A stretch of DNA of 64,000 nt, taken from assembly GCF_900155525.1 (NCBI RefSeq), contig NZ_LT706937.1, forward strand, positions 95,658 through 159,657, given 5' to 3'. A model generated the notes under the pieces. The model was not told the origin of the DNA and made no database searches. It saw nothing but the letters and a program-made list of their open reading frames with translations. The stretch's first letter is position 1, and each line of letters starts with the position of its first letter. The DNA comes from Mailhella massiliensis. GTDB taxonomy: Bacteria > Desulfobacterota > Desulfovibrionia > Desulfovibrionales > Desulfovibrionaceae. Shown in pieces: positions 24,859-52,634 of the stretch. A program made the position numbers and the translations under genes.

Positions 24859-24879
24859 CCGTTTCTGAGAGAATCTGCC

Positions 24880-36080: not shown

Positions 36081-39000
36081 ATGGTAAGACGCATCTATGT
36101 AGAGAAAAAGCCCGCCCTGCGGCATGAAGCCGGAGCGCTGCTTGCCGAGCTTCGCACCCTGCTCGGCATCTCTTCCCTTGCCGGACTTCGGCTCATCAAC
36201 CGCTACGACGTGGAAGGACTGGATGAGGAAGCCTTCCGCCGCGCGGTGAAGACCGTGTTTTCCGAACCGCAGGTCGACGATGTGAGCGAACAGCTTCCCG
36301 CCGGCGACCATACGGCGTTCGCCGTGGAATATCTGCCCGGCCAGTTCGACCAGCGTGCCGACTCCGCGAGTCAGTGCATCCAGCTCATGACGCAGGGAGA
36401 AAGGCCCGCCGTGCGCACGGCGCGGGTCTTCCTGCTTTCGGGCGACCTTTCCGAAGCCGATGTGGAAAAAATCAAGCGCTACCTTATCAACCCCGTGGAA
36501 GCGCGCGAAGCCGGACTCGGCGCCGTGGAAACGCTGCGCATGGAATACGAGGTGCCCAGCAGCGTGAGCACCGTGGAAGGCTTCATCTCCATGGACGAAG
36601 CCGGTCTGAAAGAACTGCTCGATTCCCTCGGCCTCGCCATGGATCTTGACGACCTCAAATTTCTTCAGGCCCATTTCCGCGACGAGGAAAAGCGCGATCC
36701 CACCATCACGGAAGTGCGCGTGGTGGACACCTACTGGTCCGACCACTGCCGCCATACCACCTTCTCCACGCATATCGACTCCGTGGAGATTCTGGACGAC
36801 GAGACCCGCGCCGCCTACGAGCGCTACCTTGCCGCCCGTGTGGAGGTGTACGGCGAGGAAAAGGCGGCCGTAAGGCCCCGGACCCTCATGGACATGGCCA
36901 CCATTGCCGCCAAGACGCTCAAAAAGCGCGGTCTGCTCGGCAACATGGATCAGAGCGAGGAAATCAACGCCTGCTCCATACACGTCACGGCCACGGTGAA
37001 CGGCGAAGAGCAGGACTGGCTGCTCATGTTCAAAAACGAAACGCACAATCACCCCACGGAAATCGAGCCTTTCGGCGGCGCAGCCACCTGCATCGGCGGC
37101 TGCATCCGCGACCCGCTCTCCGGCCGCGCGTATGTGTATCAGGCCATGCGCGTCACCGGCTGCGGCGATCCGCGCACGCCCGTTTCCGAAACCATTCCGG
37201 GCAAGCTTCCCCAGCGCAAGCTGGCCCAGACGGCGGCCGCAGGCTATTCCTCCTACGGCAACCAGATAGGTCTTGCCACGGGCATGGTTTCCGAAGTCTA
37301 CCATAACGGCTATGTGGCCAAGCACCTCGAAGTCGGCGCCGTGGCGGCCGCGGCTCCGGCCGCGAACGTGGTGCGCGAGCGCCCCGCTCCCGGCGACGTG
37401 GTCATCCTCCTCGGCGGCCGCACGGGACGCGACGGCATAGGCGGCGCCACCGGCTCCTCCAAGAGCCACAACCGCAAGTCCCTCGTGACCATGGCCTCGG
37501 AAGTGCAGAAGGGCAACGCGCCCGAAGAACGCAAGATACAGCGCCTGTTCCGCGACGGCAGCGTCACCCGGCTCATCAAGCGCTGCAACGACTTCGGCGC
37601 GGGCGGCGTGTCCGTGGCCATAGGCGAACTCGCCCCCGGTCTGAGCATCCGCCTGGACGCGGTGCGCAAGAAGTATGAAGGGCTGGACGGTACGGAACTC
37701 GCCATTTCCGAATCGCAGGAACGCATGGCCTGCGTGGTGGCCGCCAAGGATGCGGAAGCCTTCATCGCCGCGGCGCAGAAGGAAAATCTCGAAGCCTATC
37801 AGGTGGCCGAGGTCACGGAAGATGCCCGCATGGTCATGACCTGGCAGGGCCAGACCATCGTGAACCTTTCCCGCGCCTTCCTGGATACCAACGGCGCGTC
37901 CAAGCACACCACCGTCAAGGTGAACGCGAAGGACCGTTCCGCTCTTGACGCTCCCGCGGCCTCCAGCCTGCGCGAAACGGCTTCCAGCCTGAAATGCGCC
38001 TCCCGCCGCGGCCTTGCCGAGCGCTTCGACTCCACCATCGGCGCAGGTTCCGTGCTCATGCCCTTCGGCGGCGTGCGTCAGCGCACGCCCGCACAGGCCA
38101 TGGCCGCGCTGCTGCCCGTACTGCCCGGACAGGAAACCGAAGACTGCTCCGTCATGGCATGGGGCTTCGACGCGGATCAGATGTGCGTCGACCCGTACAG
38201 GGGAGCCTACCGCTCCGTGGTCACCTCCGTGGCCCGTCTTGCCGCGGCAGGCTGCGATTACCGCAAGGCGTACCTTTCTCTTCAGGAATATTTTGAAAAG
38301 CTGCGCGACGACCCCGAACGCTGGGGCAAGCCCTTCTCCGCCCTGCTCGGCGCGCTGGACGCCCAGCTCGGTCTCGGCGTGGCGGCCATAGGCGGCAAGG
38401 ACTCCATGTCCGGTTCCTTCCTCGACATGGACGTGCCTCCCACCCTCATTTCCTTCGCCATCGCTCCGGCCAAGGTCGGGGACATTCTTTCTCCCGAATT
38501 CAAGGAAGCCGGACACGGCGTGTACCTCTTCGCCCCTGAAAGCGAAGACGCCTCCGCTCTCAGGGCCTGCTGGGACGGCTTTGCCGCCCTGCGGGAAAAG
38601 GGCATCGTCAAGGCTGCCTGGGCCGTGGAAAACAGCGTGGCGGAAGCCGTCATGAACATGTCCTTCGGCAACGGCACGGGATTTGCCGCCTGCGCCGACG
38701 TGGCATGGCACAGGCCCATGCCCGGCGCCATCGTGGCGGAACTTTCCGAAGACTGCGCCTGCGGCCTGAAGATAGGCTCCACCACCGGCGACGGCATGAT
38801 CAGCCTCGGTAAGGACAGCGCCTCCGTAAGCGAGCTTCTCGCTCTGAACGAAGGCGTGCTGGAAAATATCTATCCGAGCCGTACCGAAACCGAAGCCGCC
38901 CCCGTGCCCGTGATCGCCTCTGAAAAGAGCCCGGTGGCCGTGCCCCGCGTGGGCGCGGCAAGGCCCAGGGTGCTCATTCCCGTCTTCCCCGGCACCAACT

Positions 39001-39761
39001 GCGAATACGACAGCGCCCGTGCCGTGCTCCGTGCAGGCCTTGAACCGGAAATCATGGTGCTCCGCAACCAGTCGGCCGCGGAAGTGTCGGAATCGGCCGC
39101 CCGCTTCGCCCGCGCTGCGCGCGACAGCCACATCATCTTCGTGCCCGGCGGCTTCTCCGGCGGCGACGAACCGGAAGGTTCCGGCAAGTTCATCACCGCC
39201 TTCTTCCGCAATCCCGAAGTGGCGGACGCCACCATGCGCCTGCTCAAGGACCGCGACGGCCTCATGCTCGGCATCTGCAACGGCTTCCAGGCGCTCATCA
39301 AGCTCGGTCTCGTGCCCTACGGCGAAATCATCGATACCGACGAGAACTGCCCCACCCTCACCTTCAACGTCATCGGCCGCCATCAGTCGAAGATCGCGCG
39401 TACGCGCGTCTGCTCGCGCCTGTCTCCGTGGCTCGGCAGGGTGAACGTGGGCGATGTGGTTTCCGTGCCCGTTTCCCACGGCGAAGGCCGCTTCCTCTGC
39501 GACGGCGCGCTGCTGGAAAAGCTGCGTGCAGGCGGGCAGATAGCCACGCAGTATGTGGACCTTGAAGGCAATCCCTCCATGGATGTGGACTTCAACCCCA
39601 ACGGCTCCATCTGGGCCGTCGAAGGCATCACCTCGCCCGACGGCCGCGTGCTGGGCAAAATGGGCCACTCCGAACGCACGGGCGCAGGCCTCTACAAAAA
39701 CGTGCCCGGCGATTACGACCTGCACCTCTTCGAATCCGCGAAGGACTACTTCAGCATCTGA
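36081..39761 (+). CDS. purL: FGAM synthase, fused PurL-PurQ (Gram-positive-like clade)
   Basis: A single 1226-residue chain. VRRIYVEKKPALRHEAGALL and ALPGQFDQR-like EYLPGQFDQRADSASQ at the N-terminus match the long PurL of clostridia and streptococci (TIGR01857 type). The core shows DTYWSDHCRHTTF, MLMFKNETHNHPTEIEPFGG and DFGAGGVSVAIGELA. A C-terminal glutaminase has GTNCEYDSARA, PGGFSGGDEPEG and LMLGICNGFQALIKLG (nucleophile Cys). It converts FGAR, ATP and glutamine to FGAM. Many Desulfovibrio relatives use separate PurS/PurQ/PurL, so this fused type suggests transfer. It ends the operon. Confidence 0.94.
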   Translation: MVRRIYVEKKPALRHEAGALLAELRTLLGISSLAGLRLINRYDVEGLDEEAFRRAVKTVFSEPQVDDVSEQLPAGDHTAFAVEYLPGQFDQRADSASQCIQLMTQGERPAVRTARVFLLSGDLSEADVEKIKRYLINPVEAREAGLGAVETLRMEYEVPSSVSTVEGFISMDEAGLKELLDSLGLAMDLDDLKFLQAHFRDEEKRDPTITEVRVVDTYWSDHCRHTTFSTHIDSVEILDDETRAAYERYLAARVEVYGEEKAAVRPRTLMDMATIAAKTLKKRGLLGNMDQSEEINACSIHVTATVNGEEQDWLLMFKNETHNHPTEIEPFGGAATCIGGCIRDPLSGRAYVYQAMRVTGCGDPRTPVSETIPGKLPQRKLAQTAAAGYSSYGNQIGLATGMVSEVYHNGYVAKHLEVGAVAAAAPAANVVRERPAPGDVVILLGGRTGRDGIGGATGSSKSHNRKSLVTMASEVQKGNAPEERKIQRLFRDGSVTRLIKRCNDFGAGGVSVAIGELAPGLSIRLDAVRKKYEGLDGTELAISESQERMACVVAAKDAEAFIAAAQKENLEAYQVAEVTEDARMVMTWQGQTIVNLSRAFLDTNGASKHTTVKVNAKDRSALDAPAASSLRETASSLKCASRRGLAERFDSTIGAGSVLMPFGGVRQRTPAQAMAALLPVLPGQETEDCSVMAWGFDADQMCVDPYRGAYRSVVTSVARLAAAGCDYRKAYLSLQEYFEKLRDDPERWGKPFSALLGALDAQLGLGVAAIGGKDSMSGSFLDMDVPPTLISFAIAPAKVGDILSPEFKEAGHGVYLFAPESEDASALRACWDGFAALREKGIVKAAWAVENSVAEAVMNMSFGNGTGFAACADVAWHRPMPGAIVAELSEDCACGLKIGSTTGDGMISLGKDSASVSELLALNEGVLENIYPSRTETEAAPVPVIASEKSPVAVPRVGAARPRVLIPVFPGTNCEYDSARAVLRAGLEPEIMVLRNQSAAEVSESAARFARAARDSHIIFVPGGFSGGDEPEGSGKFITAFFRNPEVADATMRLLKDRDGLMLGICNGFQALIKLGLVPYGEIIDTDENCPTLTFNVIGRHQSKIARTRVCSRLSPWLGRVNVGDVVSVPVSHGEGRFLCDGALLEKLRAGGQIATQYVDLEGNPSMDVDFNPNGSIWAVEGITSPDGRVLGKMGHSERTGAGLYKNVPGDYDLHLFESAKDYFSI

Positions 39762-39835
39762 GCGCTCCGGGGGAGTCCGTCTCCCCCGAGCGGAGCTTCA
39801 CGGGTCCGCCTGAGGTTGCGGCGTTCAGAAAAACT

Positions 39836-39876
39836 AAGGCTCCCGGCCGCATCATACGGTCGGGAGCCTTTCTTTT
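39836..39876 (+). terminator. Terminator of the pur operon
   Basis: AAGGCTCCCG (39836-39845) pairs with CGGGAGCCTT (39861-39870), followed by TCTTTT. The 5'-nucleotidase gene converges from the right. Confidence 0.9.
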
Positions 39877-39888
39877 ACATGAAGCGGC

Positions 39889-41514
39889 CTATCTTACACG
39901 GATGATGCGCCCGCCCTCCGGCTCGGGCAGCGGGGAATGCGTCCGTATCCAGGCTTCCACCTCATCCACCACCAGACTCTCGGGCGAAGGAACCGCGCCT
40001 CCTCCGGCCAGCACGGCATAACCGTCCCCCCCTTCGGCAAGATAATCGGCAAGCGCCACGATATAGCGCCCGTCCGGCTCAAGAGGGGAAAACGTTCCCT
40101 TTTCATCCTGCACTTCCGCCTTCAGCACCCGGGAACCGGCGGGACGGGTGGAATCCACCTCATAGCGCAGGCCCGCCGTCTGGAGAAGACGCGGCCCCTT
40201 CGCCCCTTCCTGCGCCACGCCGTGTTCCAGCGCGGCAAGAATCTCCCTGCCCGTATATTCACGCAGTACGGACACGTTGCCGAAGGGATGAACGGAAAGC
40301 AGGTCTCCCCGCGTGATCTTCCCGGCGGGAAGAGCCGCGCGTACGGCTCCGCCGTTGCAGAGCGCCACGGTTGCGCCGAAGGGACGGCCCGCCTCCAGCA
40401 TGGCGTCCGTGGTGATCATGCCGCCGAGGCAGTCCTTTTCCCGGCACAGGTCCATGCCGTCGGGCAGGGAAAGATGATGCTCTCCCACCACTTCGGCACG
40501 GAGCGCCCTGAGCGTCGCCCCGTAGCGGTCCACAAGTTCCTTCACCGCGGGGTCCACAGGCGTGTCGGCGCCAAGCTCCACGGCGGCCCCGCTCCAGAAT
40601 GCGGGTACGCCTTTTCCGTCGAACTTCACGCTGAGCTCGCCGAGGTACTTTGCCCCGCGCCCGGCGGTGACCACCAGAACGGGGGAACCGTCCGGCGAAT
40701 GCTCCACCACGGGATACGGTCCGTCGGAAGGCTCGGGTCCCAGATAGCTGTGCGTATGCCCGCCCACAATGATATCCACGCCGTCCACGCTGCGGGCCAG
40801 TTCTCTGTCCCTGGGAAGACCGAGGTGCGTCACTGCCACGATGTGCCGTATGCCCTGCGCTTCAAGTTCCTTCACCTCGCGGGCAAGCGCATCCTCCGCC
40901 CTGTCGAAGCGCGTCTGCGCGCAGGCCGAGGCCAGGGCGGTCACCTCATCGTTGGCAAGCCCCACAACGGCCACCTTTTCCCCGCGCACGTTTCTGACGA
41001 TGTGCGGCAGCCTTCTCCCCCCATGCAGGGGGCAGCCTTCTTCAGGATTCAGATTGGCGGCCAGCACGGGCACAGGCGTCTTTTCCATAAAGCGGGCCAG
41101 TTCCCCGCAGCCTTCGTCGAACTCATGGTTGCCCAGCGTCATGGCGTCCCACGGCACCACGCGGTCCACATCCGCAATCATGGGCCATTTGTTCACACTG
41201 TAGAAAAGCGTGCCCTGAAACTGGTCTCCGGCGTCCACGGCGATGACGTTGTCCTTCTGCGCCCTCGCGGCCTTCACGGCAAAGGCCACACGGCCCAGCC
41301 CCCCGGCACAGTCTCCGTTCTCCAGACAGGCGTTGCCGTATCCGTCCATACCGGCAAGGAAGGAATGCGTATCGTTGGTGTGCAGAATCACCAGCTCCAG
41401 ACCGTCTTCCTGCCGTTGCGGAACCGATTTTTCCCCGCATCCGGCAAGAACGGATGCCATGGCCAGAACCAGCGCAAGGCATGGCCCTGCACCGCTCCGT
41501 ATTCTTCTCTTCAT
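39889..41514 (-). CDS. 5'-nucleotidase/UshA-type lipoprotein
   Basis: A 541-residue exported phosphoesterase. The lipoprotein signal ends LAMASVLAGCGEKS. The metallophosphatase domain follows with LVILHTNDTHSFLAG, VDAGDQFQGTLFYS, TLGNHEFDEG and IVGGHTHSYLG, all di-metal ligand motifs. The C-terminal nucleotidase domain has ALCNGGAVRAALPAG and a LADYLAEGGDGYAVL substrate loop. It releases phosphate from nucleotides or related esters outside the inner membrane. The ATG at 41514 is chosen because it begins the signal peptide and has GGAG ahead. Confidence 0.93.
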   Translation of the reverse strand: MKRRIRSGAGPCLALVLAMASVLAGCGEKSVPQRQEDGLELVILHTNDTHSFLAGMDGYGNACLENGDCAGGLGRVAFAVKAARAQKDNVIAVDAGDQFQGTLFYSVNKWPMIADVDRVVPWDAMTLGNHEFDEGCGELARFMEKTPVPVLAANLNPEEGCPLHGGRRLPHIVRNVRGEKVAVVGLANDEVTALASACAQTRFDRAEDALAREVKELEAQGIRHIVAVTHLGLPRDRELARSVDGVDIIVGGHTHSYLGPEPSDGPYPVVEHSPDGSPVLVVTAGRGAKYLGELSVKFDGKGVPAFWSGAAVELGADTPVDPAVKELVDRYGATLRALRAEVVGEHHLSLPDGMDLCREKDCLGGMITTDAMLEAGRPFGATVALCNGGAVRAALPAGKITRGDLLSVHPFGNVSVLREYTGREILAALEHGVAQEGAKGPRLLQTAGLRYEVDSTRPAGSRVLKAEVQDEKGTFSPLEPDGRYIVALADYLAEGGDGYAVLAGGGAVPSPESLVVDEVEAWIRTHSPLPEPEGGRIIRVR

Positions 41515-41682
41515 GGTTCTTTCTCCTTTCCTCATGCCCGGCAACAGGGGGGCGCTTCTTCCATGAAAAGCACGCGCCTGCCGTTCCGCGAAGCCGCTTT
41601 CCACGGCCGCGGGGATTAAAACAGAAAAGCGCGGCAATGAAAACCGCGATCTCCGCTTCCTTTTTTCTCCCGGAGAACAATG

Positions 41683-42483
41683 TCACAAGACGGAAAGAAC
41701 GACATGCAGCGCCATGACGATATTCATGACGGCCACGGCCTTCTTCATGGCCGCAAGCGGCATGTTTTCGGCATGAAGCAGATACGCCCCGAACCTTGCC
41801 GTCACCACGGAGGGAACAAGAAGGCACAGCGCCCCGGGAAGGTACAGATATCCCAGCGACCACGCGGGAAGCTTCGCCTCTCCCCAGCCGGAAAGCATGT
41901 ATCCGCAGGTGGAGGTTGCGGCAATGACAAGGCCGATGCCCGCGCTCGTTCCCACGGCCTGACGCCAGGGAACGCCTCTCCAGTGCAGCCAGGTAACGCA
42001 GATCAAGGTTCCGGCAAGCCCGCTCATGCTGGCAAGCAGCCCGAAAAAAGCCGCCGCCACCTCCAGAAAGGCCGTTTTCTCCCTGCAGGGCTCCCGGGAT
42101 TTCTGCGGAAGAAGAATGTGCACCCCCATGAGCATGAGCACGGCGGCAAAAAGCAGCCTGAGAAAAAGCGCGGGCATGTGAGGAGCCAGAAATGCCCCGG
42201 CCATGCTCCCGGCAAACACATACGGTCCCATGCGCCGGAGAAGATCTCCGCGCAGCGACCCCAGCGCCCTGTGGGCCAGTACGCTGGACACACAGGTCAG
42301 AAGTATGGTGGCCGGAGCCGTGCCCACGGCCATCACATGCGCCATGCCCGGAGAAACGCCGAGGCGCGGCAACACTTCATCAAGCAGCGGAATGACGATG
42401 AACGAGCCGCCCATGCCGAGAAGGCCGTTGAGCAGGCCGATGAACGCGCCGCCGACCATGCATGAAGCAACAAGAAACAGCAT
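41683..42483 (-). CDS. TauE/SafE family permease
   Basis: A 266-residue membrane protein with about eight segments. GAFIGLLNGLLGMGGSFIVIPLL in the first half and FFGLLASMSGLAGTLICVTWLHW in the second are the duplicated TauE/SafE motifs. Family members export sulfite, sulfoacetate or related anions produced from organosulfur compounds, though most are untested. It lies 93 bp behind the Fe-S oxidoreductase gene with a hairpin between, so it may be transcribed on its own or by read-through. Confidence 0.85.
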   Translation of the reverse strand: MLFLVASCMVGGAFIGLLNGLLGMGGSFIVIPLLDEVLPRLGVSPGMAHVMAVGTAPATILLTCVSSVLAHRALGSLRGDLLRRMGPYVFAGSMAGAFLAPHMPALFLRLLFAAVLMLMGVHILLPQKSREPCREKTAFLEVAAAFFGLLASMSGLAGTLICVTWLHWRGVPWRQAVGTSAGIGLVIAATSTCGYMLSGWGEAKLPAWSLGYLYLPGALCLLVPSVVTARFGAYLLHAENMPLAAMKKAVAVMNIVMALHVVLSVL

Positions 42484-42517
42484 TCTCCCCCCCTTTTTTC
42501 CGAAACTTCATCGTCAA

Positions 42518-42547
42518 AGGCCCCCCGGGCGCACGCCCGGAGGGCCT
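42518..42547 (-). terminator. Hairpin between the Fe-S oxidoreductase and TauE/SafE genes
   Basis: AGGCCCCCCGGGC (42518-42530) pairs imperfectly with GCCCGGAGGGCCT (42535-42547); on the minus strand only TTT follows. Probably a partial or full terminator of the upstream operon. Confidence 0.6.
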
Positions 42548-42575
42548 CCTTCTCACTGCAATACGGAGAGAGATG

Positions 42576-44252
42576 CTACAGCATCATGGTCAGGGGGAAC
42601 TTGTAGGCAATGGACCCCGTGGGGCAGGCAATACGGCAGCAGCCGCAGTGCCAGCACTGGGCAGGATAGGCCACGGCGGGACCGTCGTCCGTCATTTCCA
42701 GAATATGGCCGGGGCAGCTTTCCACACAGGAACCGCATTCCATGCAGTGGCCGCAGTGCATACAGCGCGAGGCCTCCTTCACCGCCTGTTCCGGGGAAAG
42801 CCCGTCCTCCAGTTCATGGAAGGCCACGCCGGGCGCAGCGTCCTTCACCGGCTGCACCTGCCTCGGCGCATGTTCGTGGTAGTCGATGTTCATCATTTCC
42901 TCAAAGGCCACCACATGGGGTTCCACGCAGCTTTCCGCCTTCTGCGTGCACACGTTCCCTTCCTCGTCGATGAAAATGTCGAGGGGGGCCTGCTCTCCGC
43001 ACAGGAAGCAGTGCAGGGCCACGGCGGCCCTGCGGCCCGCGCCTATGGCGGAAGCCACCAGCCCGGGACCGGAGGCCATATCCCCCGCCGCGAAAAGGCC
43101 GGGCACGGAGGTGCGGAAGTCGTCGTCCACCTTCACCATGCCGCGCGGCGTGCGTTCCACATCCATGCCGCAAAGCGCCGTTTCGTCGAGCTTGAGACCG
43201 CTTGCGCATATCACAAGGTCGGCGTCGAGCAGGAAGGCGGCTTCATCGGCCATTTCCGCATGAAGACGGCCCGTTTCATCGAAGCGGAAGGAGGAGACCT
43301 TTTCCGCCTTCACACGCAGGCGTCCGTCCGTCTCTTCCACGCTCCTGCTGAGCAGCGACTGATGAAGGCATATCCCTTCTTCCCGGGCCTGCCGTACCTC
43401 CTCGGCCGGGGCGCGCATGGAAGAATCGTCCTCAAGGCAGATGAGATGCACCGAGCGGGCCTTCAGACGCTTTGCGGTGAAGGCGCAGTCGAAGGCCACG
43501 CCGCCGCCGCCGAGAATGGCCACGTCGCGCCCTTCAAGGCTCTCGCGCTCCAGCGTCATGCGCCTGAGCCAGTTCACGGCCGTTTTCAGGTGCTCCCTGC
43601 CGGGAATATCGAGAATGCGTTCCTTCCACAGGCCCGTGGTCATGAGGCAGGCGTCGTAACGCTCCAGAAGGTCGGCCACCATCACGTCGCGTCCTGCGGT
43701 GACGTTGGTGAAGACCTGCACGTCGCCTTCCACGGCCGCGGCGCATTCACGGTCCACCACATCCTTGGGCAGGCGGAAGTCGGGAATGACCTGACGGGGC
43801 GCTCCGCCCATGACGGGCGAAGATTCATATACGTCCACGCCATGCCCCAGAAGGGAGGCAAAACGCGCTGCGGCAAGTCCGGCAGGGCCCGCGCCCACCA
43901 CGGCGATGCGGCGGCCGCTTTCCGGCAGCGGACGGAGCCTGAGGCCTCGACCGTGATCGGCGGCAAAACGCTCCAGGCTGTGTATGGCCATGGGCTCATC
44001 ATAGGAAGTTCTGTTGCACTTTCCCTCGCAGGGATGAGGACATACGCGGCCCGTCACCCCGGGGAAGGGGTTGCGGACATGCAGCCACAAAAGAGCCTCG
44101 TCCACACGGCCTTCCGCCAGAAGGGTATGAACTTTCTGTATGGAATTTCCGAGAAGGCAGGCCTTCTCACAGGGAGAAGTGCGCGTCTGGCGGAAGTCGC
44201 CGCTGTTCTGGATGAAAGGGATTTTCCATTCCTTGCTGTAAATAGGGGGCAT
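42576..44252 (-). CDS. GltD-like FAD/NAD(P) oxidoreductase with C-terminal 2[4Fe-4S] domain
   Basis: A 558-residue protein. An N-terminal Fe-S domain (SPCEKACLLGNSI; GRVCPHPCEGKCNR) leads to the FAD motif IAVVGAGPAGLAAARFASLL, an NAD(P) motif VAILGGGGVAFDCAFTAKRL, and GLFAAGDMASGPGLV. The C-terminus adds CMHCGHCMECGSCVESCPG and CWHCGCCRIACPTGS, two ferredoxin-type clusters. It can take electrons from NAD(P)H and hand them on, most likely to the flavoprotein encoded 20 bp upstream. I start at ATG 44252 with GGAG ahead, not the ATG at 44273 inside the upstream stop. Confidence 0.88.
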   Translation of the reverse strand: MPPIYSKEWKIPFIQNSGDFRQTRTSPCEKACLLGNSIQKVHTLLAEGRVDEALLWLHVRNPFPGVTGRVCPHPCEGKCNRTSYDEPMAIHSLERFAADHGRGLRLRPLPESGRRIAVVGAGPAGLAAARFASLLGHGVDVYESSPVMGGAPRQVIPDFRLPKDVVDRECAAAVEGDVQVFTNVTAGRDVMVADLLERYDACLMTTGLWKERILDIPGREHLKTAVNWLRRMTLERESLEGRDVAILGGGGVAFDCAFTAKRLKARSVHLICLEDDSSMRAPAEEVRQAREEGICLHQSLLSRSVEETDGRLRVKAEKVSSFRFDETGRLHAEMADEAAFLLDADLVICASGLKLDETALCGMDVERTPRGMVKVDDDFRTSVPGLFAAGDMASGPGLVASAIGAGRRAAVALHCFLCGEQAPLDIFIDEEGNVCTQKAESCVEPHVVAFEEMMNIDYHEHAPRQVQPVKDAAPGVAFHELEDGLSPEQAVKEASRCMHCGHCMECGSCVESCPGHILEMTDDGPAVAYPAQCWHCGCCRIACPTGSIAYKFPLTMML

Positions 44253-44272
44253 TGTTCTCTCTCCTTCCGCCA

Positions 44273-45910
44273 TTACAGCCAGAACGTGCTGGGCTGGCCG
44301 TCTTTTTTGATCACCGCGAGAATCTTGCCGTTGTAGGCGTCGCTTTTTTCCGGGTAGTCGCTGCGGCGGTACACGCTTCTGCCGCTTTCCCTGCGCTCAC
44401 GGGTGCACAGGGTGGAAAGCACGCAGGAGGAAAGCAGGTGTTCCGCCTCATGCACCATCATGAGTTCGTGCATGTTGGAGGCCTTTACCCGGCCCATGTA
44501 GGTGGCAATGAAGCCCAGGCGCTCCAGGGCGATGTCCATGCCCGCCTCATTGCGCACATATCCCATGTAGTACGACATGACCTGCCGGATGGAGGATTCG
44601 AACATCGCCTGGTCGATCACGTCGCCCTTCACGGCAAGAGGCGCGCCGATACGGGCGCATTCGGCCTGTATCTCCTCTTCCAGATCACCGAGGTCCACGG
44701 GCGCGGCAAGGCGGCCTGCGGCGGAACGTCCGGCAAGGTAGCCGCTGCACAGGGAACCGGAGAAGGTGTAGAACACGCATCCGTTGTACAGGCCGGGCAC
44801 GGTGGTTTCATAGTGATCGTCCGTGGCGAGCATCCCGCTGAATTCAATCTCGCCTATCTCGATTTCCATGGGGGCCTTGGCGAAGTCCACGCCGCGCTGC
44901 TCGCAGTAGTCGAGGAAGGTGGCCTTGTCGCCGGGCATGAGCACATACTGCAGGTGATGGAGCAGCTCGGGGTCGATGTGGCGCATTTCCATATGGAAGG
45001 GCCCGCGGCCTTCCACCAGTTCCCTGTGCGTGCCGTTGATCTGGAACTGACGGGGGCAGTTTTCCATCTGCGGATGATACCTGGGCATGAACCTCTCGCC
45101 GAGGGCGTTCAGTTCGTGCGCGCCGGAACCGTTGATGCCGTTCATGCCCGCGCAGCCGAAGCCCTTGGGAATAAGCGTGGCCTGCTGCTTCACGTCCATG
45201 TTGATGATGCGCGCGCCCGCCTCGTAGGCAAGAGCGTACTGGCTGCCCGTGTTGAAGGGGCTGTGCCAGGTATTGTACGGGTTGCCCGTGGAATTGGCGG
45301 AGGCACGGTTGCAGCTGTTGCCGAGGGCGAGAATGACGGTGGATGCGGCGATGACGTATCTGGTTCCGTCCAGCACGTTGAAGCCCACGGCCCCGGCGAT
45401 GCAGCCGTCCTTTTTGAGCAGACGGGTGATCATCACATGGTCGAGCACGTCCGCGCCCATGGCGCGCAGCCTTCGGGCGATGAGGCGCTTGATCTTCTGC
45501 CCTTCGGCGATATTGATGTACCAGGCCGGTTCCCCGCGGCCCGCGGTGCGCAGGTAGCTCCCGTCGGGATTGTGCAGAAGGTGCACTCCCTCCGCTTCCA
45601 GAAAGGCCACCATGTCGGGCATGACTTCGCCCCAGTCGCGTATCTGCTTTTCCGAAACGCCGGAACCGGGCTTGTTGTGCACACGGACAAGGTCGTCGAT
45701 GGTGTCGTCCGGCTCGTCGGTACCGAGCACCGCGACGAAATGGTCGTTGCCGCCGCCCAGACAGCCGGAACTTTCCAGCTTGCCCTTGTCCACCATGAGC
45801 GTCCTGACTCCGGCCCTTCGGGCGGCCAGAGCCGCGCCGCAGCCGGCGGCGCCCGTACCGAGGATGAGAAGATCCGTTTCCAGGCGGATAATCTGAGGAT
45901 TCATGGTCAT
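44273..45910 (-). CDS. AprA/fumarate reductase-like flavoprotein
   Basis: A 545-residue FAD protein. The dinucleotide motif TDLLILGTGAAGCGAALAAR lies at about 10-29. WHSPFNTGSQYALAYEAGAR and VEGRGPFHMEMRHIDPELLHHL are typical of the adenylylsulfate reductase alpha / fumarate reductase flavoprotein superfamily. It has no signal peptide, so it works in the cytoplasm. It is not a plain AprA, because AprB is absent and the partner is a GltD-like Fe-S protein. The start at 45910 overlaps the permease stop (ATGA); an ATG two codons later is possible. The likely job is reduction or oxidation of the imported anion, substrate unknown. Confidence 0.87.
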   Translation of the reverse strand: MTMNPQIIRLETDLLILGTGAAGCGAALAARRAGVRTLMVDKGKLESSGCLGGGNDHFVAVLGTDEPDDTIDDLVRVHNKPGSGVSEKQIRDWGEVMPDMVAFLEAEGVHLLHNPDGSYLRTAGRGEPAWYINIAEGQKIKRLIARRLRAMGADVLDHVMITRLLKKDGCIAGAVGFNVLDGTRYVIAASTVILALGNSCNRASANSTGNPYNTWHSPFNTGSQYALAYEAGARIINMDVKQQATLIPKGFGCAGMNGINGSGAHELNALGERFMPRYHPQMENCPRQFQINGTHRELVEGRGPFHMEMRHIDPELLHHLQYVLMPGDKATFLDYCEQRGVDFAKAPMEIEIGEIEFSGMLATDDHYETTVPGLYNGCVFYTFSGSLCSGYLAGRSAAGRLAAPVDLGDLEEEIQAECARIGAPLAVKGDVIDQAMFESSIRQVMSYYMGYVRNEAGMDIALERLGFIATYMGRVKASNMHELMMVHEAEHLLSSCVLSTLCTRERRESGRSVYRRSDYPEKSDAYNGKILAVIKKDGQPSTFWL

Positions 45911-47856
45911 GCTGCCTCCCGGATGACCCTGTCCCGCAGCGCGGGGTCGGGGTTGTTCTTTCTGATGATGTACTGATGCGCGTAGATGAAGGCGAAGATG
46001 GCGAAGCCCACGATGTCGGACCAGCCGGCGGGCCAGATGAAGATGAGCCCGCCCGCGATGAGCAGCAGGCGATAGAAGCGGGAACGCAGGGGACCGTGCA
46101 GATAGCCTTCCAGACCGGAAGCCACGCAGGCCACGCCTATGGTGGTCACCACCGTGGAATAGGCGATGTCGAACAGAGAACCGTCCATGAGAAGGCCCGG
46201 GCGGTACATGAAGACGAAGGGCACAAGGTATGCCGCAATGGAAAGCTTCACCGCCTGCACGCCCGTGCTGTTGGGGTTGCCCTCCGATATGCCTGCGGCG
46301 GCGTAGGCGGCCACGGCCACGGGCGGGGTTATGGCGGAAATGGCGGCAAAGTACACGATGAACAGGTGCGCGCCCATGAGGGAGAACTTGAATTCCAGAA
46401 GAGCAGGAGCCGCAAGCGTGGCGGTGAGCACATAGGCGGCGGGCACGGGCATGCCCATGCCGAGCACGATGCACACAAGAGCCACCATGGCGAGGCAGAG
46501 TCCGCTCTGGCCGCCCGTAGCCGCAAAAACAAGGCTCGTGAACTTGCCGCCGAGGCCGGTAAGCATGATGCCGCCTATGACCATGCCCGCAGCGGCGGAA
46601 GCGTTGGCCACGGTAAGAATGCCAAGGCAGGTCTTGCGCAGCACGCCGTAGAGTTCCTTTATGCCCATGCGGTGCCCGGGGATGAACCAGCTGACGACGA
46701 TGACGGCCAGCGTGGCGCACAGGCCCACCACGGTGGGGCTGACGCGCTGCACGATGAGGGTGACCAGAATCACGATGGGAATGAGGTAGAGCCAGTTTTC
46801 ACGCAGCACCTTGCCGGCGGGGTCCACAGGGTGTTCGTCGTCGGCGATGGGGCGCATTCCCTGCATCACGGAACGGTCGTGCACCTGAAGCATGAGCGCC
46901 ACATAGTAGATGACGGCGGGAATGGCGGCGGCAATGGCGATGTCGATATAGGGAATGCCCGCCACGTCCACCATGAGGAAGGCGGCCGTGCCCATGATGG
47001 GCGGCAGGATGGACGCGCCCGAACAGGCGGAAGCCGCCACGGCGCCCGCAAATTCCGGCGTATAGCCGAGCTTTTTCATAAGAGGAATGGTGATGCTGCC
47101 GGTGGTCACCACGTCGGAAACGGGGGAACCGGAAACGGTACCGTACAGGGCGGAGGCGATGACGCTGATCTTGGCGGGGCCGCCGCGCATACGTCCGGCG
47201 ATGGAGGCAGCAAGGCTGAAGAAGAACTTTCCGCCGCCTGCGGCGTTGAAGGTGTGGCCGAAGAGCACGAACATGAACACATAGGTGCAGGCCACGCCGA
47301 GGGGAGTGCTGAAAATGCCGTCGTAGGTGAACACCATGCGGTCGAGGAAGGTTTCCAGCGAGCAGCCGCGGTGCCCCCAGTAGCCGGGCAGGTATTTGCC
47401 TACGAAGTTGTAGGCGATGAAGACGAGGATGATGCCGAGAAGCACGGGCCCCACGGTGCGGCGCGTCACTTCAAGCACCAGCAGAACACAGGCGGAAGTG
47501 ACCACCCAGTCGGCGGGCAGCAGCGGATCGACGCCGGTCCAGCGGTTGATGATGTCCGTACCGTTCACGGTAAGGTACATGCCTATGCCGAGGCTCGCGA
47601 CGGCGAGAATGATATCCGCTACGGGCACATTCTCCGATTCCTTCGGCTCGCTCTTCACCGGAGTGAAGCAGATGAAGGTGAGCGCCACGGCAAAGGAAAC
47701 GAAAAGCCCGCGCAGGATATAGGAATCAATGAACCCGAACGGCGCGCCGTACAGTTCGATGGCGGAAAATATCAGAACAAGCACGCCGGTGATCTTCACC
47801 CACAGCGGAGACAGGTTCCTTCTGCGTCCTTCCTTGAAAAGCATTCCGAGTGTCAT
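45907..47856 (-). CDS. TRAP transporter fused permease (TAXI type)
   Basis: A 649-residue membrane protein joining the small (DctQ-like, first four segments) and large (DctM-like, 12-14 segments) TRAP subunits. YGTVSGSPVSDVVTTGSITIPLMKK and ASACSGASILPPIMGTAAFLMVD are hallmark DctM motifs, and VLGMGMPVPAAYVLTATLAAPAL follows. Fused forms pair with TAXI binding proteins, as here. It uses the Na+ gradient to import an organic anion. The ATG at 47856 has GGAG ahead; upstream in-frame codons do not look coding. Confidence 0.94.
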   Translation of the reverse strand: MTLGMLFKEGRRRNLSPLWVKITGVLVLIFSAIELYGAPFGFIDSYILRGLFVSFAVALTFICFTPVKSEPKESENVPVADIILAVASLGIGMYLTVNGTDIINRWTGVDPLLPADWVVTSACVLLVLEVTRRTVGPVLLGIILVFIAYNFVGKYLPGYWGHRGCSLETFLDRMVFTYDGIFSTPLGVACTYVFMFVLFGHTFNAAGGGKFFFSLAASIAGRMRGGPAKISVIASALYGTVSGSPVSDVVTTGSITIPLMKKLGYTPEFAGAVAASACSGASILPPIMGTAAFLMVDVAGIPYIDIAIAAAIPAVIYYVALMLQVHDRSVMQGMRPIADDEHPVDPAGKVLRENWLYLIPIVILVTLIVQRVSPTVVGLCATLAVIVVSWFIPGHRMGIKELYGVLRKTCLGILTVANASAAAGMVIGGIMLTGLGGKFTSLVFAATGGQSGLCLAMVALVCIVLGMGMPVPAAYVLTATLAAPALLEFKFSLMGAHLFIVYFAAISAITPPVAVAAYAAAGISEGNPNSTGVQAVKLSIAAYLVPFVFMYRPGLLMDGSLFDIAYSTVVTTIGVACVASGLEGYLHGPLRSRFYRLLLIAGGLIFIWPAGWSDIVGFAIFAFIYAHQYIIRKNNPDPALRDRVIREAA

Positions 47857-47963
47857 AGTTTTTCTCCGGAAAGAGAATTCTGGTAATGTGGGGACAAAAA
47901 CGTCCCTCACCGCTTCGGACACATGTTCCGGCGGCCGAAAGAACAAAACAGAGCGGGGGAATT

Positions 47964-48024
47964 TTCCTGCGGGGGAATTCCCCGCAGGAAGGGAGGCGGA
48001 AGGGAGCCTGGAATCCCTTCCGCC
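47964..48024 (-). repeat. Two adjacent hairpins between binding protein and permease genes
   Basis: TTCCTGCGGGG...CCCGCAGGAA (47964-47990) and GGCGGAAGGGA...TCCCTTCCGCC (47995-48024) form two strong stems with no T-run. They probably stabilise the upstream message or damp read-through, giving more binding protein than permease. Confidence 0.7.
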
Positions 48025-48031
48025 GGGAGGA

Positions 48032-49015
48032 CTACTTCTTCAGCTTCGCGGCATAGAACTTCTCCGCCGCAGGATGCATGGGAATGGCGGTATTGGCGGC
48101 CATGGCCTCCAGCGAGAGATCCTTCAGGTTGGAGTGCACGGTACGCAGGTAGTCGAGGTTCTGTTCCATGGCGTTCAGCACGCCTTCCACCAGTTCATCG
48201 GGCGTATCGATACTGGTGATGAGCAGAAGCTGCGTGGTTACGGTTTTGCAGTCTTCCTTCTGGAAGGGGTACGTTCCGGCGGGAATGGTGATGGAAGTGG
48301 AACCGAGTTCCCGGTTCAGCCCTTCAATGACGGACTCGTCCAGAGAAAGCAGGCGCAGGTCATGCTTCTGCCCCAGCTCGAAGAAACGGCTGGAAGGGTA
48401 CTGGCAGACTTCGATGATGGCGTCCATCTGGCCGGCGTCCCACAGATCCGTGGCTTCCGGGCCGGGAATCTTGAAAATCTTGCCGCCCCAGGAGGTGATG
48501 TCCTTATACGGGGCGCCGTACAGCTCCAGCGTTTTTTCCGACATGATGTCGATCACCGTGCCCTGACGGTTCACGGTCACCTTGAGGGGATACTTCTTGG
48601 CCTTGATGTCGGAAGCCTTCTCGATGCCGGTCTTCGCATCCACAAAGAACTGCAGGGCCTGCATGGGGTTCAGCACGGCCACAAGGCGGAGCTTGTCCAT
48701 CTTCGCCCTGAAGGGAGCCTCGCCCTTCAGAGCGCGGATGGTCAGAAGATCGCTGGCGATGCCGAACTGCACGTCGCCCTTGTTGACCATGACCTGATTG
48801 GGGCCGTCCTTGCCGGGTTCCGTGGTCACGCGCGCGCCCTCAAAGCTGCGGCGGACGGTTTCCCCCACACCTTCGGTAATGATGGCCCAGAGGCCGCCGG
48901 AACCGCCGCCCACAATGGTCATGTCATGGCTTGCCGCACGGCAGGTCGCGGCGGAAGGAAGGGCGAAAACACCCGCCATGAAAAGACTCAGGCATGTTCT
49001 GGTAAGAGAGTTCAT
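48032..49015 (-). CDS. TAXI family TRAP solute-binding protein
   Basis: A 327-residue periplasmic protein with a Sec signal (MNSLTRTCLSLFMAGVFALP ... CRAAS). MTIVGGGSGGLWAIITEGVGE is the TAXI N-terminal signature, DVQFGIASDLLTIRALKGE follows, and DLWDAGQMDAIIEV and AAAEKFYAAKLKK-like PAAEKFYAAKLKK close the fold. TAXI proteins bind glutamate, 2-oxoglutarate or other organic anions; the ligand here is unknown. AGGAGGGATGT precedes the ATG at 49015. First gene of the operon, divergent from lysR. Confidence 0.93.
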   Translation of the reverse strand: MNSLTRTCLSLFMAGVFALPSAATCRAASHDMTIVGGGSGGLWAIITEGVGETVRRSFEGARVTTEPGKDGPNQVMVNKGDVQFGIASDLLTIRALKGEAPFRAKMDKLRLVAVLNPMQALQFFVDAKTGIEKASDIKAKKYPLKVTVNRQGTVIDIMSEKTLELYGAPYKDITSWGGKIFKIPGPEATDLWDAGQMDAIIEVCQYPSSRFFELGQKHDLRLLSLDESVIEGLNRELGSTSITIPAGTYPFQKEDCKTVTTQLLLITSIDTPDELVEGVLNAMEQNLDYLRTVHSNLKDLSLEAMAANTAIPMHPAAEKFYAAKLKK

Positions 49016-49090
49016 ACATCCCTCCTGGTGAAAATTTTCATATATCATCTTGTAATGAAAAATAGACAGGAGGAAAAATATCTTTTAGTC

Positions 49091-49124
49091 TCGAAAATCA
49101 TATCGAAAAGAAATAGATCGAAAG
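49091..49124. promoter_or_regulatory. TCGAAA direct repeats in the lysR/TAXI divergent region
   Basis: TCGAAAA at 49091 and 49103 and TCGAAAG at 49118 stand in a very AT-rich 230-bp gap between the divergent genes. Repeats here are candidate binding sites for the LysR regulator, though the classic T-N11-A dyad is not obvious. Confidence 0.4.
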
Positions 49125-49244
49125 TATTGTTTTCAATAATTTCAGTAGAATGCATAAAAAAACTCTTTCTTAAAACTATTTTTCTCATGGCTTCGCCATA
49201 CAGCCCCGCCCCGGGAGTTTCCCCGTAAGAACTTGGAGAAAGTC

Positions 49245-50174
49245 ATGGATTTCAAAAGGTTGGAATACTTCTGCTCGCTTGTGGAATTCGGTTCGTTCAG
49301 CAAGGCGGCCACTTCCCTTCACATTTCGCAGCCTCCGCTTTCCCAGCGGATCAAGGAACTGGAGGAGGAGCTCGGCGTTACGCTCATCCACCGCACCAGC
49401 CGGAGCTTTCAGATCACTCCTGCGGGGGAGGAACTCTATCACCGCGCCCAGTTCATCCTTTCCTACATTCACGCCTTTGAGAAAGATTTTCTGCGCAGCG
49501 GCGATCCTGTTTCCGGTCATGTACGCATAGGCGTATGCCCGCCTTGCAATTCCTTCATGCTTGAGGCTCTGCCGGAACTGCAGAAGCTGTACCCGCAGCT
49601 TACCTACAGGCTCTGGCTCATGGACAATCAGAGTCTGGAACGGCACATGCAGGAAGTGCATCTGGATCTGTGCCTGGCGCAGCTTCCGCTCAAGAATCAG
49701 AACTACCGGATCATTCCTCTGCGTTCCTCACACTACTGCGCGCTTTACGGCTCCGGCCTTGCCGCTCCCCGCAAAAAAAGCGTGCGCCCTGCCGACCTGA
49801 AGGATGTGCCGCTGCTTCTTTCCCGCCGCAGAGACGACGGCGGCAGCTACAACCAGATCATGAAAACCTTCCAGAAGGAAGGAATCGTGCCGCAGGTCTT
49901 TGCCGACACGCAGGATGTGCGCATCATGGTGGAACTTCTCAGCCGGGGGCTGAACGCCGCCGCCATTCTGCCGGAAAGCGAAGTCCCGAAGAACTGCACT
50001 CTGGAATGCCGGAGGGTGCACTTCAGCGAGCTGTGCACCCTGCCCGTCATTCTGGTGCTCAGACAGGCGTACATTTCCCACGCGGCGTACCGTGTCATCC
50101 AGTTTCTCTACGAACGCTTCCGCTCCCCGGAAGACAGGAAGGATCATCTCTCCCAGCTCTTCAGTGAAGAATGA
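49245..50174 (+). CDS. LysR-family transcriptional regulator
   Basis: A 309-residue regulator. The N-terminal winged HTH is typical (MDFKRLEYFCSLVEFGSFSK, AATSLHISQPPLSQRIKELEEEL, then HRTSRSFQITPAG), and the C-terminal co-inducer domain begins VRIGVCPPCNSFML. It is divergent from the TAXI-TRAP operon and probably controls it in response to the substrate. The ATG at 49245 has GGAG 7 bases ahead; a TTG at 49233 would add four residues. Its stop (50172-50174) directly abuts the last CRISPR repeat. Confidence 0.92.
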   Translation: MDFKRLEYFCSLVEFGSFSKAATSLHISQPPLSQRIKELEEELGVTLIHRTSRSFQITPAGEELYHRAQFILSYIHAFEKDFLRSGDPVSGHVRIGVCPPCNSFMLEALPELQKLYPQLTYRLWLMDNQSLERHMQEVHLDLCLAQLPLKNQNYRIIPLRSSHYCALYGSGLAAPRKKSVRPADLKDVPLLLSRRRDDGGSYNQIMKTFQKEGIVPQVFADTQDVRIMVELLSRGLNAAAILPESEVPKNCTLECRRVHFSELCTLPVILVLRQAYISHAAYRVIQFLYERFRSPEDRKDHLSQLFSEE

Positions 50175-51582
50175 TCTCGATACCGCCTGCGCGGCGGATA
50201 ACTTTCTCACCATGGCAGGAGTGACAATCCTGCACTTCTAAACCGCCTGCGCGGCGGATAACGTGATCGCAACCTGCATCCGTTTTCTGTGTGGCTTCTA
50301 AACCGCCTGCGCGGCGGATAACAGCAGGAGCCGCAGAAATGAGCGGTGCGGACTCTTCTAAACCGCCTGCGCGGCGGATAACGACTACGGCAGGCTCGAC
50401 GTGGACACGACCACCTTCTAAACCGCCTGCGCGGCGGATAACTCTTGATGAACCATCGCACGGGGTATGATCGTCTTCTAAACCGCCTGCGCGGCGGATA
50501 ACGTTCTTCTGCGTGCTCTCGAAGTTATCAATGGCTTCTAAACCGCCTGCGCGGCGGATAACTCCCGCCGCCCCAGTCTGCGCTTCATCGGCAACTTCTA
50601 AACCGCCTGCGCGGCGGATAACTTTCCGCCCATATCCACGGGCGTGATGGCATACTTCTAAACCGCCTGCGCGGCGGATAACGGCATATACGTTATAGCC
50701 GTTTTCCAGCAGCTCTTCTAAACCGCCTGCGCGGCGGATAACACGCCGAAGTGGGAGCCGAAGCCGGGGGAACTCTTCTAAACCGCCTGCGCGGCGGATA
50801 ACACCATTGCCATGATGGAATCGCGCATGGAGTTCTTCTAAACCGCCTGCGCGGCGGATAACATCCCCTTTAGCAAACAAGGGATGCTTCTGACCTTCTA
50901 AACCGCCTGCGCGGCGGATAACGGTGGTGCAAGGCAGGCCCTGTCTGTCGTGATCTTCTAAACCGCCTGCGCGGCGGATAACGCAAGCTGCACGCGACGC
51001 TGTGCGAAGCTGTACTTCTAAACCGCCTGCGCGGCGGATAACTGGGGCCCATTCCGTTCTTTGTTGGCGTTGTCCTTCTAAACCGCCTGCGCGGCGGATA
51101 ACTCACTACGTTCGAGTGTTTGTCGCCAAAAGTACTTCTAAACCGCCTGCGCGGCGGATAACGCTCCCACGTTGCCCGTGGTGCGCGGCATGGCCTTCTA
51201 AACCGCCTGCGCGGCGGATAACAAGGTGGTGTCCACCCAGACGGGCACGTTCACCTTCTAAACCGCCTGCGCGGCGGATAACTACACCATGCAGGGCATC
51301 CAGAACGTCGAGCACTTCTAAACCGCCTGCGCGGCGGATAACGTTTTCCATTTCGTGCATGGCAGGACACTTCACTTCTAAACCGCCTGCGCGGCGGATA
51401 ACCAGCCGTCCATACTGCGCTTGTCCTTCCCCTCCTTCTAAACCGCCTGCGCGGCGGATAACATCAAAGAAGAGCGCAGCGTCGATAAGGTCATCTTCTA
51501 AACCGCCTGCGCGGCGGATAACAGCAGGCGGCGCAGGTGCTCGGCAGCGAGGAACTTCTAAACCGCCTGCGCGGCGGATAAC
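50175..51582 (-). CRISPR. Type I-F CRISPR array: 24 repeats, 23 spacers
   Basis: The 28-bp repeat is CTTCTAAACCGCC / TGCGCGGCGGATAAC on the plus strand, and it recurs every 60 bp, so every spacer has 32 bp. Twenty-three copies (50235-51582) are identical. The copy at 50175-50202 is degenerate in its first seven bases, marking the old, trailer end. The leader therefore lies at 51583 and beyond, beside cas1, and the array is transcribed leftwards as GTTATCCGCC...TTAGAAG. The repeat hairpin (CCGCCTGCGCGGCGG) and 28/32 geometry fit the Csy4-processed I-F class. Confidence 0.99.
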
Positions 51583-51680
51583 TAGAGCTTTCTGCTAAAA
51601 AATTCTGTTATTTCAGCATACGGCGACACTTTTTGCCTAAAAGTCTTCCCCATTGAGGGTATCCACATATCATACTTATA
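51583..51680 (-). promoter_or_regulatory. CRISPR leader
   Basis: About 98 bp of AT-rich sequence between the youngest repeat and the cas1 stop. It should carry the array promoter and integration signals. No exact IHF site was picked out. Confidence 0.6.
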
Positions 51681-52634
51681 TTATTGAACTTTTTTACAAG
51701 CTTTCTCCATGAAGTCAAAAAGAAAGTCCAACACCTCCTTTTCCTGACACAAATCTATAAGACTCAGACGGAACTCCTGCGGAGAAGCCCCCTTCTGAGC
51801 GCATTCAAACGCCAGCGGCATAACCAGGGCATCCTTGATGATATCGGCCAGATCGAACACCAGCGCGCCCCGACGTGTCTTGCCGTGCAGCACCGGCATG
51901 GCAAAGCTGATCCCCAGTCCGCAAAGAACTACCGACGCATAGCCATAGGCTATGTAATTGCCATGATCCAGAAAACCATTGCAGATATCTGCAAGAGAAG
52001 AAGATGCTCTTTTTCCTTCCTCTCTTTTAAAGGGAAAACCGTGCCCTCCGGCAAGATCGGCGTACAGGCGTCTGGCCCAGCGAGCTTCCACAAGCAACAG
52101 CTCCTGCGTTCCCTCTGCCCGACTCAACTCCGCATCCACCTGCTGCCGAAGCGCCTCTGAAACAGATATGCCAAGCTGAGACAAAGAGATATTATCCCGC
52201 CAGGCTTCCGCCGTCAGCCTCACTCGCTCCTTCAGGAAATACCGGGCCAGTTCCAGTCTTTTCTCTTCCTGAAACCAGAGCCTGCTCCACTCCTGCATAT
52301 AGTGAGTCGGGCGATACTCACTTTGCGGGACAAGAAAGACCGGATCAACCGCCCCCGACAAAGGGGAACCTCCAGACCCGCAAAATCCCACCAGTACCTG
52401 CGATGCCGCCAGCCTGCGCATCGCGGCATCGGTAATGGAAGTCCCCTTTCCCAGCAGCAGAAAGGCCGTATTCCGCTCGGGAATGTTGAATATCTGTTCG
52501 AACTCGCCGCCGTCATCCGTAAGATAAACAACACGTTCATCCTGCTGTATTACCCGCGCGTGCTCCAAATAAAAGACATTGGCCCTTTTGGAAAGCATAA
52601 GCGGGCGGGGTTCCGTTTTATTTCTCAAAGCCAT
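51681..52634 (-). CDS. cas1: CRISPR-associated endonuclease Cas1, I-F type
   Basis: A 317-residue integrase. PLMLSKRANVFYLEHARVIQ is the start signature of I-F Cas1, and the active-site region includes LLLVEARWARRLYA (Glu), YGYASVVLCGLGIS, MPVLHGKTRRGALVFDLAD (His, Asp). It inserts new spacers with the Cas2 domain of Cas2-3. The ATG at 52634 overlaps cas6f by 10 bp and has GGAG ahead. Being the last cas gene, next to the leader, is unusual: I-F operons usually begin with cas1. Confidence 0.95.
   Translation of the reverse strand: MALRNKTEPRPLMLSKRANVFYLEHARVIQQDERVVYLTDDGGEFEQIFNIPERNTAFLLLGKGTSITDAAMRRLAASQVLVGFCGSGGSPLSGAVDPVFLVPQSEYRPTHYMQEWSRLWFQEEKRLELARYFLKERVRLTAEAWRDNISLSQLGISVSEALRQQVDAELSRAEGTQELLLVEARWARRLYADLAGGHGFPFKREEGKRASSSLADICNGFLDHGNYIAYGYASVVLCGLGISFAMPVLHGKTRRGALVFDLADIIKDALVMPLAFECAQKGASPQEFRLSLIDLCQEKEVLDFLFDFMEKACKKVQ

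Follow-up and report, generated by a model that had tools for sequence, protein, structure and literature searches.

The window analyzed here is a stretch of 64,000 nucleotides from the Mailhella massiliensis genome (3.47 Mb, 28 contigs). It includes genes for a TAXI-family TRAP solute-binding protein, a fused TRAP permease, a flavoprotein with the fold of AprA and FrdA (hereafter FP), and a GltD-like NAD(P)H oxidoreductase that ends in a 2[4Fe-4S] ferredoxin domain (hereafter GLTD), with a LysR-type regulator gene running divergently. All five were confirmed as open reading frames (ORFs; Table 1). An earlier reading made from the letters of this DNA alone (the sequence-only reading) described a tight four-gene run, and the ORFs and their spacing are as it claimed: the FP start overlaps the TRAP end by ATGA, and 20 bp separate FP from GLTD, which has an alternative upstream ATG at 44273. 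It also named the two transport proteins correctly, as both score above the cut-offs of their families (TIGR02122 and TIGR02123). The module is a real, recurring variant of the AprBA/fumarate reductase kind in which the beta subunit is probably NADH-fed.

The flavoprotein and its active site

FP contains FAD_binding_2 and Succ_DH_flav_C domains, and its nearest solved relatives by sequence are the reductases of phosphoadenosine phosphosulfate (PAPS) and adenosine phosphosulfate (APS). The AlphaFold2 (AF2) model of FP, which has a predicted local distance difference test score (pLDDT) of 92.2, best matches the alpha subunit of MtPAPSR, the FAD/Fe-S PAPS reductase of Methanothermococcus thermolithotrophicus [8a8o_A; Z 44.9, root-mean-square deviation (rmsd) 2.5, 27% identity over 521 residues], followed by FrdA (1kf6_A; Z 40.6, rmsd 2.5, 515 residues aligned) and AprA (Z 39.4). 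This agrees with the original placement of the protein near AprA and fumarate reductase. By family models, FP falls in no characterized clade: it is under the curated cut-off of every NCBIfam model among the matches listed (25 of 39), including PRK08275 (235 bits, cut-off 587) and PRK06854 (193 bits, cut-off 557). The model for TcuA (NF006130) gives 36.3 bits, short of its cut-off of 369.

We considered membership of AprA, and with it sulfate reduction, and rejected it. FP scores 133.7 bits with TIGR02061, far short of the cut-off of 641.75, and no protein in the host genome exceeds that cut-off. The host does encode a DsrA above cut-off, on a contig other than that of the window. DsrA without AprA fits a sulfite rather than a sulfate reducer, so we infer that M. 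massiliensis reduces sulfite but not sulfate.

To compare FPs, we scanned contigs for the patterns [IL]GGGNDH[FY] and [LS]MPGDK[AE]T and took the best 80 of 85 loci. Out of 102 FPs, 7 fragments and 20 distant FPs were removed, leaving 75 (identity of 38% or more across 430 residues), five of them from the host genome. Because the loci were picked by these two motifs, their conservation carries no evidential weight; both Arg287 and the pairing with a partner gene, described below, lie outside them.

In E. coli SdhA, one Arg is catalytic, one His binds FAD covalently, and further residues bind the dicarboxylate. FP Arg287 stands in the column of the catalytic Arg (SdhA R286), which is also Arg in FrdA and in NadB, the L-aspartate oxidase. 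It is present in 75/75 FPs and in none of 19 distant FPs, while Desulfovibrio piger AprA and MtPAPSR have Thr in this column. FP shares its fold with the PAPS and APS reductases and with fumarate reductase, and its Arg with fumarate reductase, succinate dehydrogenase (SDH), and L-aspartate oxidase. It differs from fumarate reductase and SDH in lacking the covalent-FAD His (SdhA H45 column) and the dicarboxylate-binding residues that were tested, and the window operon includes no SdhB/FrdB or membrane anchor. Judging from these columns, the FAD of FP is probably bound non-covalently, and the enzyme would transfer a proton at a carbon atom of some substrate that is not fumarate, in place of sulfur chemistry.

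GLTD and its AprB-like ferredoxin domain

GLTD has Fer4_20, Pyr_redox_2, and Fer4 domains, in that order. Its best NCBIfam match, PRK12771, gives 408 bits against a cut-off of 516. Its model (pLDDT 90.5) is nearest in fold to the large subunits of NfnABC and StnABC (Z 40.0 with 9bov_A, Z 38.4 with 8oh5_C), but GLTD is shorter (558 residues vs 953–1178), and its neighbors are FP, TRAP, TAXI, and a TauE/SafE permease rather than further Nfn or Stn subunits. The N-terminal domain has five invariant Cys, and two further Cys stand just ahead of the C-terminal domain.

All 75 FPs have a same-strand partner within 600 bp downstream. In 56 cases this is a GLTD (50 with core and ferredoxin domain both seen, 6 cut by contig ends), and in the other 19 it is a lone 2[4Fe-4S] ferredoxin that matches the GLTD C-terminus. 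The ferredoxin domain is the better conserved part of GLTD: against the window protein, it exceeds the GltD core in 49/49 comparisons (means 60% vs 48%). Each of its eight cluster Cys is retained by 48–50 of the 50 GLTD. A CWHC motif occurs in 19/19 lone ferredoxins and 48/50 GLTD (the other two have ambiguous letters there). In the alignment, the Trp of this motif lies opposite Trp42 of the beta subunit of MtPAPSR, a residue that the authors of the MtPAPSR study propose for electron transfer (PMC10322725). In the AprB-like ORF next to the AprA of D. piger, the motif reads CWEC. Position, Trp, conservation, and substitution by lone ferredoxins together make it well supported that the GLTD ferredoxin domain is the counterpart of AprB, as the sequence-only reading had suggested. 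That reading also singled out the pairing of an AprA-like protein with a GltD–ferredoxin fusion as unusual. The pairing is real; it is not a single oddity, since it belongs to a family with five close FP copies in this host.

The N-termini suggest how the fusion arose. GLTD begins with MPPx[YF]S in 50/50 cases, and the lone ferredoxins begin with MPPxF in 19/19, with their first Cys at residue 10, a position shared by the AprB-like ORF of D. piger, whose start (MPTFVDPSKC) is similar. Among 609 called neighborhood proteins longer than 100 amino acids, 31 have an MPP start, and every one is a GLTD. This shared start suggests an AprB-like gene into which a GltD core was inserted just after the first strand. 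A quick maximum-likelihood tree of the FPs, which has several long branches and is unsure in its details, requires two changes for the lone-ferredoxin state, one for a clade of 18 and one for L009, a host locus. We infer that the GLTD state is ancestral; two losses of the NADH core, with the ferredoxin retained each time, would explain the tree most simply.

Other systems share parts of this plan. DsrL, the NAD(P)H partner of DsrAB, works with a redox partner, as proposed here for GLTD, and has an N-terminal domain with two [4Fe-4S] clusters, an FAD/NAD core, a linker of ~100 residues, and a C-terminal two-[4Fe-4S] domain (PMC7596348). GLTD keeps the order of N-terminal Fe-S domain, core, and C-terminal domain, but with the Cys numbers given above. 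However, the synteny partner of GLTD is an AprA-like FP and not DsrAB. The same source relates a YRR motif to NADPH use in DsrL-2 (PMC7596348), and where this motif would stand, 48/50 GLTD have Glu. The replacement predicts NADH rather than NADPH, and thus a GltD core of the NADH type. A paper on isoprene reductase deals with a GltD-like enzyme and not with FP (PMC10134865). Compared with MtPAPSR and AprBA, which have a 2[4Fe-4S] beta partner with the same Trp, GLTD stands apart in the fusion of that subunit to a GltD core and in its importer operon.

A second arrangement was found beside a distant FP (~26% identity) of the host genome (L017, 7939–11272). Residues 1–30 of its 539-residue partner match the first ~30 residues of 80-residue ferredoxins (45–53% identity, E 2e-6 to 1e-4), while the second half of these ferredoxins is matched at the C-terminal end of the partner (50–67%, E 6e-11 to 2e-9). 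Both matches were found with 13/13 ferredoxins compared, the second one beginning at ferredoxin residue 30–32 in seven and earlier in six. These split matches indicate a GltD core of ~460 residues nested between the two clusters. Relatives of this partner occur in 12/19 genomes of the genus, host included, and in 11 of the 12 loci an FP match adjoins; the twelfth (L125) is a partial gene with no FP seen. With this nested partner, it looks as if partners of FPs acquired an NAD(P)H module more than once.

Two further relatives were observed. In L015 (7537–11784), a distant FP has a 365-residue partner with an N-terminal cluster motif and a C-terminal CWYC; among the matches listed, it resembles the L017 partner, with a shortened GltD-like core and a weaker second match, and by inspection a TctA-like permease adjoins. 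In D. piger, a second AprA-like protein (L103; 383.5 bits, under the AprA cut-off) has an AprB-like neighbor that begins MPPRIDPNKC; a Crp-like regulator was also noted there by inspection.

Distribution, proposed electron route, and alternatives

The host encodes the window FP, four close paralogs (45–53% identity), and seven more distant ones. Three of the paralog loci (L009, L011, and L012) have their own TAXI protein above cut-off and a fused-TRAP homolog beside FP, and L010 has a DctP-type TRAP set by cluster membership. The nearest named loci are from Mailhella and other Desulfovibrionaceae, with FP identities of 84–89% in L019, L021, and L029. At E <= 1e-100, FP occurs in 15/79 genomes, host included, and 13 of the 19 genomes of the genus are among them. 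In a sample of 395 genomes from the phylum, in which three first-look candidates were scored per genome so that the count is a lower bound, at least four have FP, host included. FPs were also found in metagenome-assembled genomes (MAGs) labeled Syntrophus, Syntrophorhabdaceae, and Dehalococcoidia.

The orthologous loci L021 and L029 have the same order of TAXI, TRAP, FP, and GLTD and likewise a divergent LysR, and the gene set recurs elsewhere: TAXI, fused TRAP, and FP are consecutive in 16/75 loci, window included, with a second FP between them in L025. Neither observation that the sequence-only reading named as refuting it was made: FP is below the family cut-offs, and its gene order is kept in relatives. 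The sequence-only interpretation as a whole is partly supported. Near the 75 FPs, we counted TAXI (18), DctP (19), SLC13-type (33), and TctA (3) importers, where one locus may hold several. Other neighbors include class II aldolases (L022, L023, L025, and L041), a D-2-hydroxyacid dehydrogenase (L041), an amidohydrolase (L087), and carboxylesterases (near 5/75 FPs). No consistent FP substrate follows from the neighboring genes. A substrate assignment through the aldolases was tried and dropped; the best match was 3,4-dihydroxyphthalate decarboxylase in two of the four tested, at ~91 bits against a cut-off of 200.

We propose that FP and GLTD form a cytoplasmic two-protein NADH:organic-acid oxidoreductase on the plan of APS reductase. 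Going by its family, the TAXI-TRAP system would bring an organic anion into the cell, and LysR may induce the operon when the substrate is present. NADH, predicted over NADPH, would reduce the FAD of the GltD core. Conserved residues, synteny, and homology suggest that electrons would pass from there via the N-terminal Fe-S cluster(s) to the AprB-like 2[4Fe-4S] domain, and that the conserved Trp would then relay them to FP, whose FAD is probably non-covalent. We consider this route, from NADH through GltD FAD and ferredoxin to FP FAD, to be quite probable. FP would then most likely reduce an activated C=C bond to which Arg287 donates the proton, and the cell would dispose of NADH in this way; the product may leave through the MFS (major facilitator superfamily) or TauE permeases found beside a few copies. 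Reduction of the imported acid by FP is a far more even call than the route itself. The window and its orthologs hold an importer, FP, GLTD, a regulator, and sometimes MFS or TauE, a gene content that would suit uptake, a single redox reaction, and release of the product. The tricarballylate system TcuABC-TcuR is built alike, with an importer, an FAD dehydrogenase, an Fe-S partner, and LysR; however, TcuB is a heme membrane protein and GLTD is of the GltD type.

Several observations weigh against the proposal that an imported acid is reduced with NADH. Near 8/75 FPs, no TAXI, DctP, SLC13-type, or TctA importer was seen, four of these eight being in loci clipped on at least one side. Two of 50 GLTD do have YRR, and the 19 FPs whose partner has no NADH core must be served by another donor. 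SdhA H242, T254, E255, H354, and R399 are not kept in FP by alignment columns, which makes dicarboxylate reduction unlikely. The second AprA-like protein of D. piger also has Arg in the R286 column, and Arg alone is no proof of C=C chemistry. Furthermore, the aldolase, dehydrogenase, and amidohydrolase genes near environmental FPs sit better with catabolism, and possibly oxidation, at those loci. Taking these points into account, we give NADH-fed reduction of an imported organic acid by FP and GLTD, as a whole, about an even chance.

The same neighboring genes, together with the carboxylesterases and an Fe-ADH in L010, would suit the reverse direction, in which FP would take hydrogen from an imported organic acid (a hydroxy acid or a cyclic one) and NAD+ would receive the electrons through GLTD. 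An SDH-type Arg serves both reaction directions. DsrL also operates both ways (PMC7596348). However, the gene run of the window, L021, and L029 includes no recognized catabolic enzyme. For most dehydrogenations of acids, moreover, the potential of NAD+ as acceptor is low, and we regard the reverse direction as rather unlikely, if a serious competitor. It is improbable that FP performs AprA- or PAPS reductase-like sulfur chemistry, for example on an organosulfur anion, yielding sulfite for DsrAB or TauE. PAPS and APS reductases are indeed the nearest solved relatives by sequence, and PAPS reductase by fold, a TauE gene adjoins GLTD, and the host has DsrA without an AprA above cut-off. However, the R286 column is Thr in D. 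piger AprA and MtPAPSR and Arg in all 75 FPs, TauE is near just two of the 75 (the window and one other locus), and FPs occur in the MAGs named above, whose groups are, to our knowledge, not known for sulfate reduction. The fold of GLTD, nearest to the NfnABC and StnABC large subunits, also raises electron bifurcation, in which NADH oxidation would be coupled to reduction of both the FP substrate and ferredoxin; the Nfn/Stn small subunits were not found next to GLTD, and we give this only a slim chance.

Beyond the window, NADH-fed reduction by FP and GLTD may tentatively, at somewhat under an even chance, be extended to a previously unnamed branch of the AprA/fumarate reductase superfamily. 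In this branch, an AprB-type ferredoxin would have repeatedly captured a GltD-type dehydrogenase, by fusion behind the retained N-terminal MPP peptide and by nesting between the two clusters, giving NADH-driven reductases that are each matched to an importer. With these, several acids from the diet or the host would serve as electron sinks for gut sulfite reducers and other anaerobes. If true, this would add a cytoplasmic NADH-fed route to organic-acid reduction by gut anaerobes, and an Fe-S subunit would be seen gaining a pyridine-nucleotide module through fusion and nested insertion. Which substrate each pair of importer and FP handles is a question that can be tested directly in Mailhella and D. 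piger. A literature search, judged from titles and abstract openings and including few subscription journals, gave no recognized description of the FP–GLTD pair.

Features of the locus and adjoining genes

The positions of the operon genes and of the residues and domains discussed above are given in Table 1. A block within the region between TAXI and LysR is also kept in two other Mailhella loci. Rfam gave no match across window positions 38000–52000. The TauE/SafE gene lies on the same strand as GLTD, 92 bp downstream, and may be a fifth operon gene encoding a putative exporter; in the orthologous locus L021, TauE comes after GLTD and an MFS gene.

Table 1. Positions in the window of the operon genes and of selected parts of their products
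Feature	Position	Strand	Basis
LysR-type regulator, divergent	49233..50174	+	HTH_1, LysR_substrate; ORF; alternative ATG 49245
Divergent intergenic region, likely LysR-controlled promoter (predicted)	49016..49232	.	Conserved block, 3-sequence alignment
TAXI-family TRAP solute-binding protein	48032..49015	-	TIGR02122, 139.8 bits, cut-off 84.35
Fused TRAP permease	45907..47856 (start ATG 47856 or 47844)	-	TIGR02123, 610.4 bits, cut-off 320.65
FP, AprA/FrdA-fold FAD flavoprotein, 545 aa	44273..45910	-	Family scans, predicted fold
FP Arg287 codon	45050..45052	-	Aligns with E. coli SdhA R286; codon checked
GLTD, GltD-like NAD(P)H oxidoreductase with C-terminal 2[4Fe-4S] ferredoxin, 558 aa	42576..44252	-	Family scans, fold
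GLTD N-terminus MPPIYS	44235..44252	-	MPPx[YF] common to lone ferredoxins
GltD core of GLTD, residues ~22–476	42825..44189	-	Fold match range
AprB-like ferredoxin domain of GLTD, residues ~490–558	42579..42785	-	Comparison with lone ferredoxins
GLTD Trp534 codon (CWHC)	42651..42653	-	Aligns with Trp42 of MtPAPSR beta; codon checked
TauE/SafE permease, possible fifth gene	41683..42483	-	Pfam PF01925, 115.2 bits, cut-off 32.6

Some other FP loci have additional features. L053 (D. piger) and similar loci have a row of SLC13-type permease, LysR, FP, GLTD, a porin-like protein, a ferredoxin, and a second, distant FP. Porin-like proteins are near 16/75 FPs, and the single one tested had no Pfam match. 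In the host, an ORF of 1454 residues followed by one of 152 residues adjoins the FP operon of L009 (10039–14886). One FP copy (G019:C1:1973075-1974430) has a single in-frame TGA and is possibly a decaying gene.

The window itself includes a further GltD-like protein (659 aa) beside a 600-aa protein at 22879–26682, with FP not adjacent. A CRISPR array adjoins the LysR gene at 50175–51582, with 28-bp repeats at a 60-bp period and 24 exact copies counted of a 21-base repeat core. The ORFs from 51681 onward look cas-like, and the array is presumably of type I-F.

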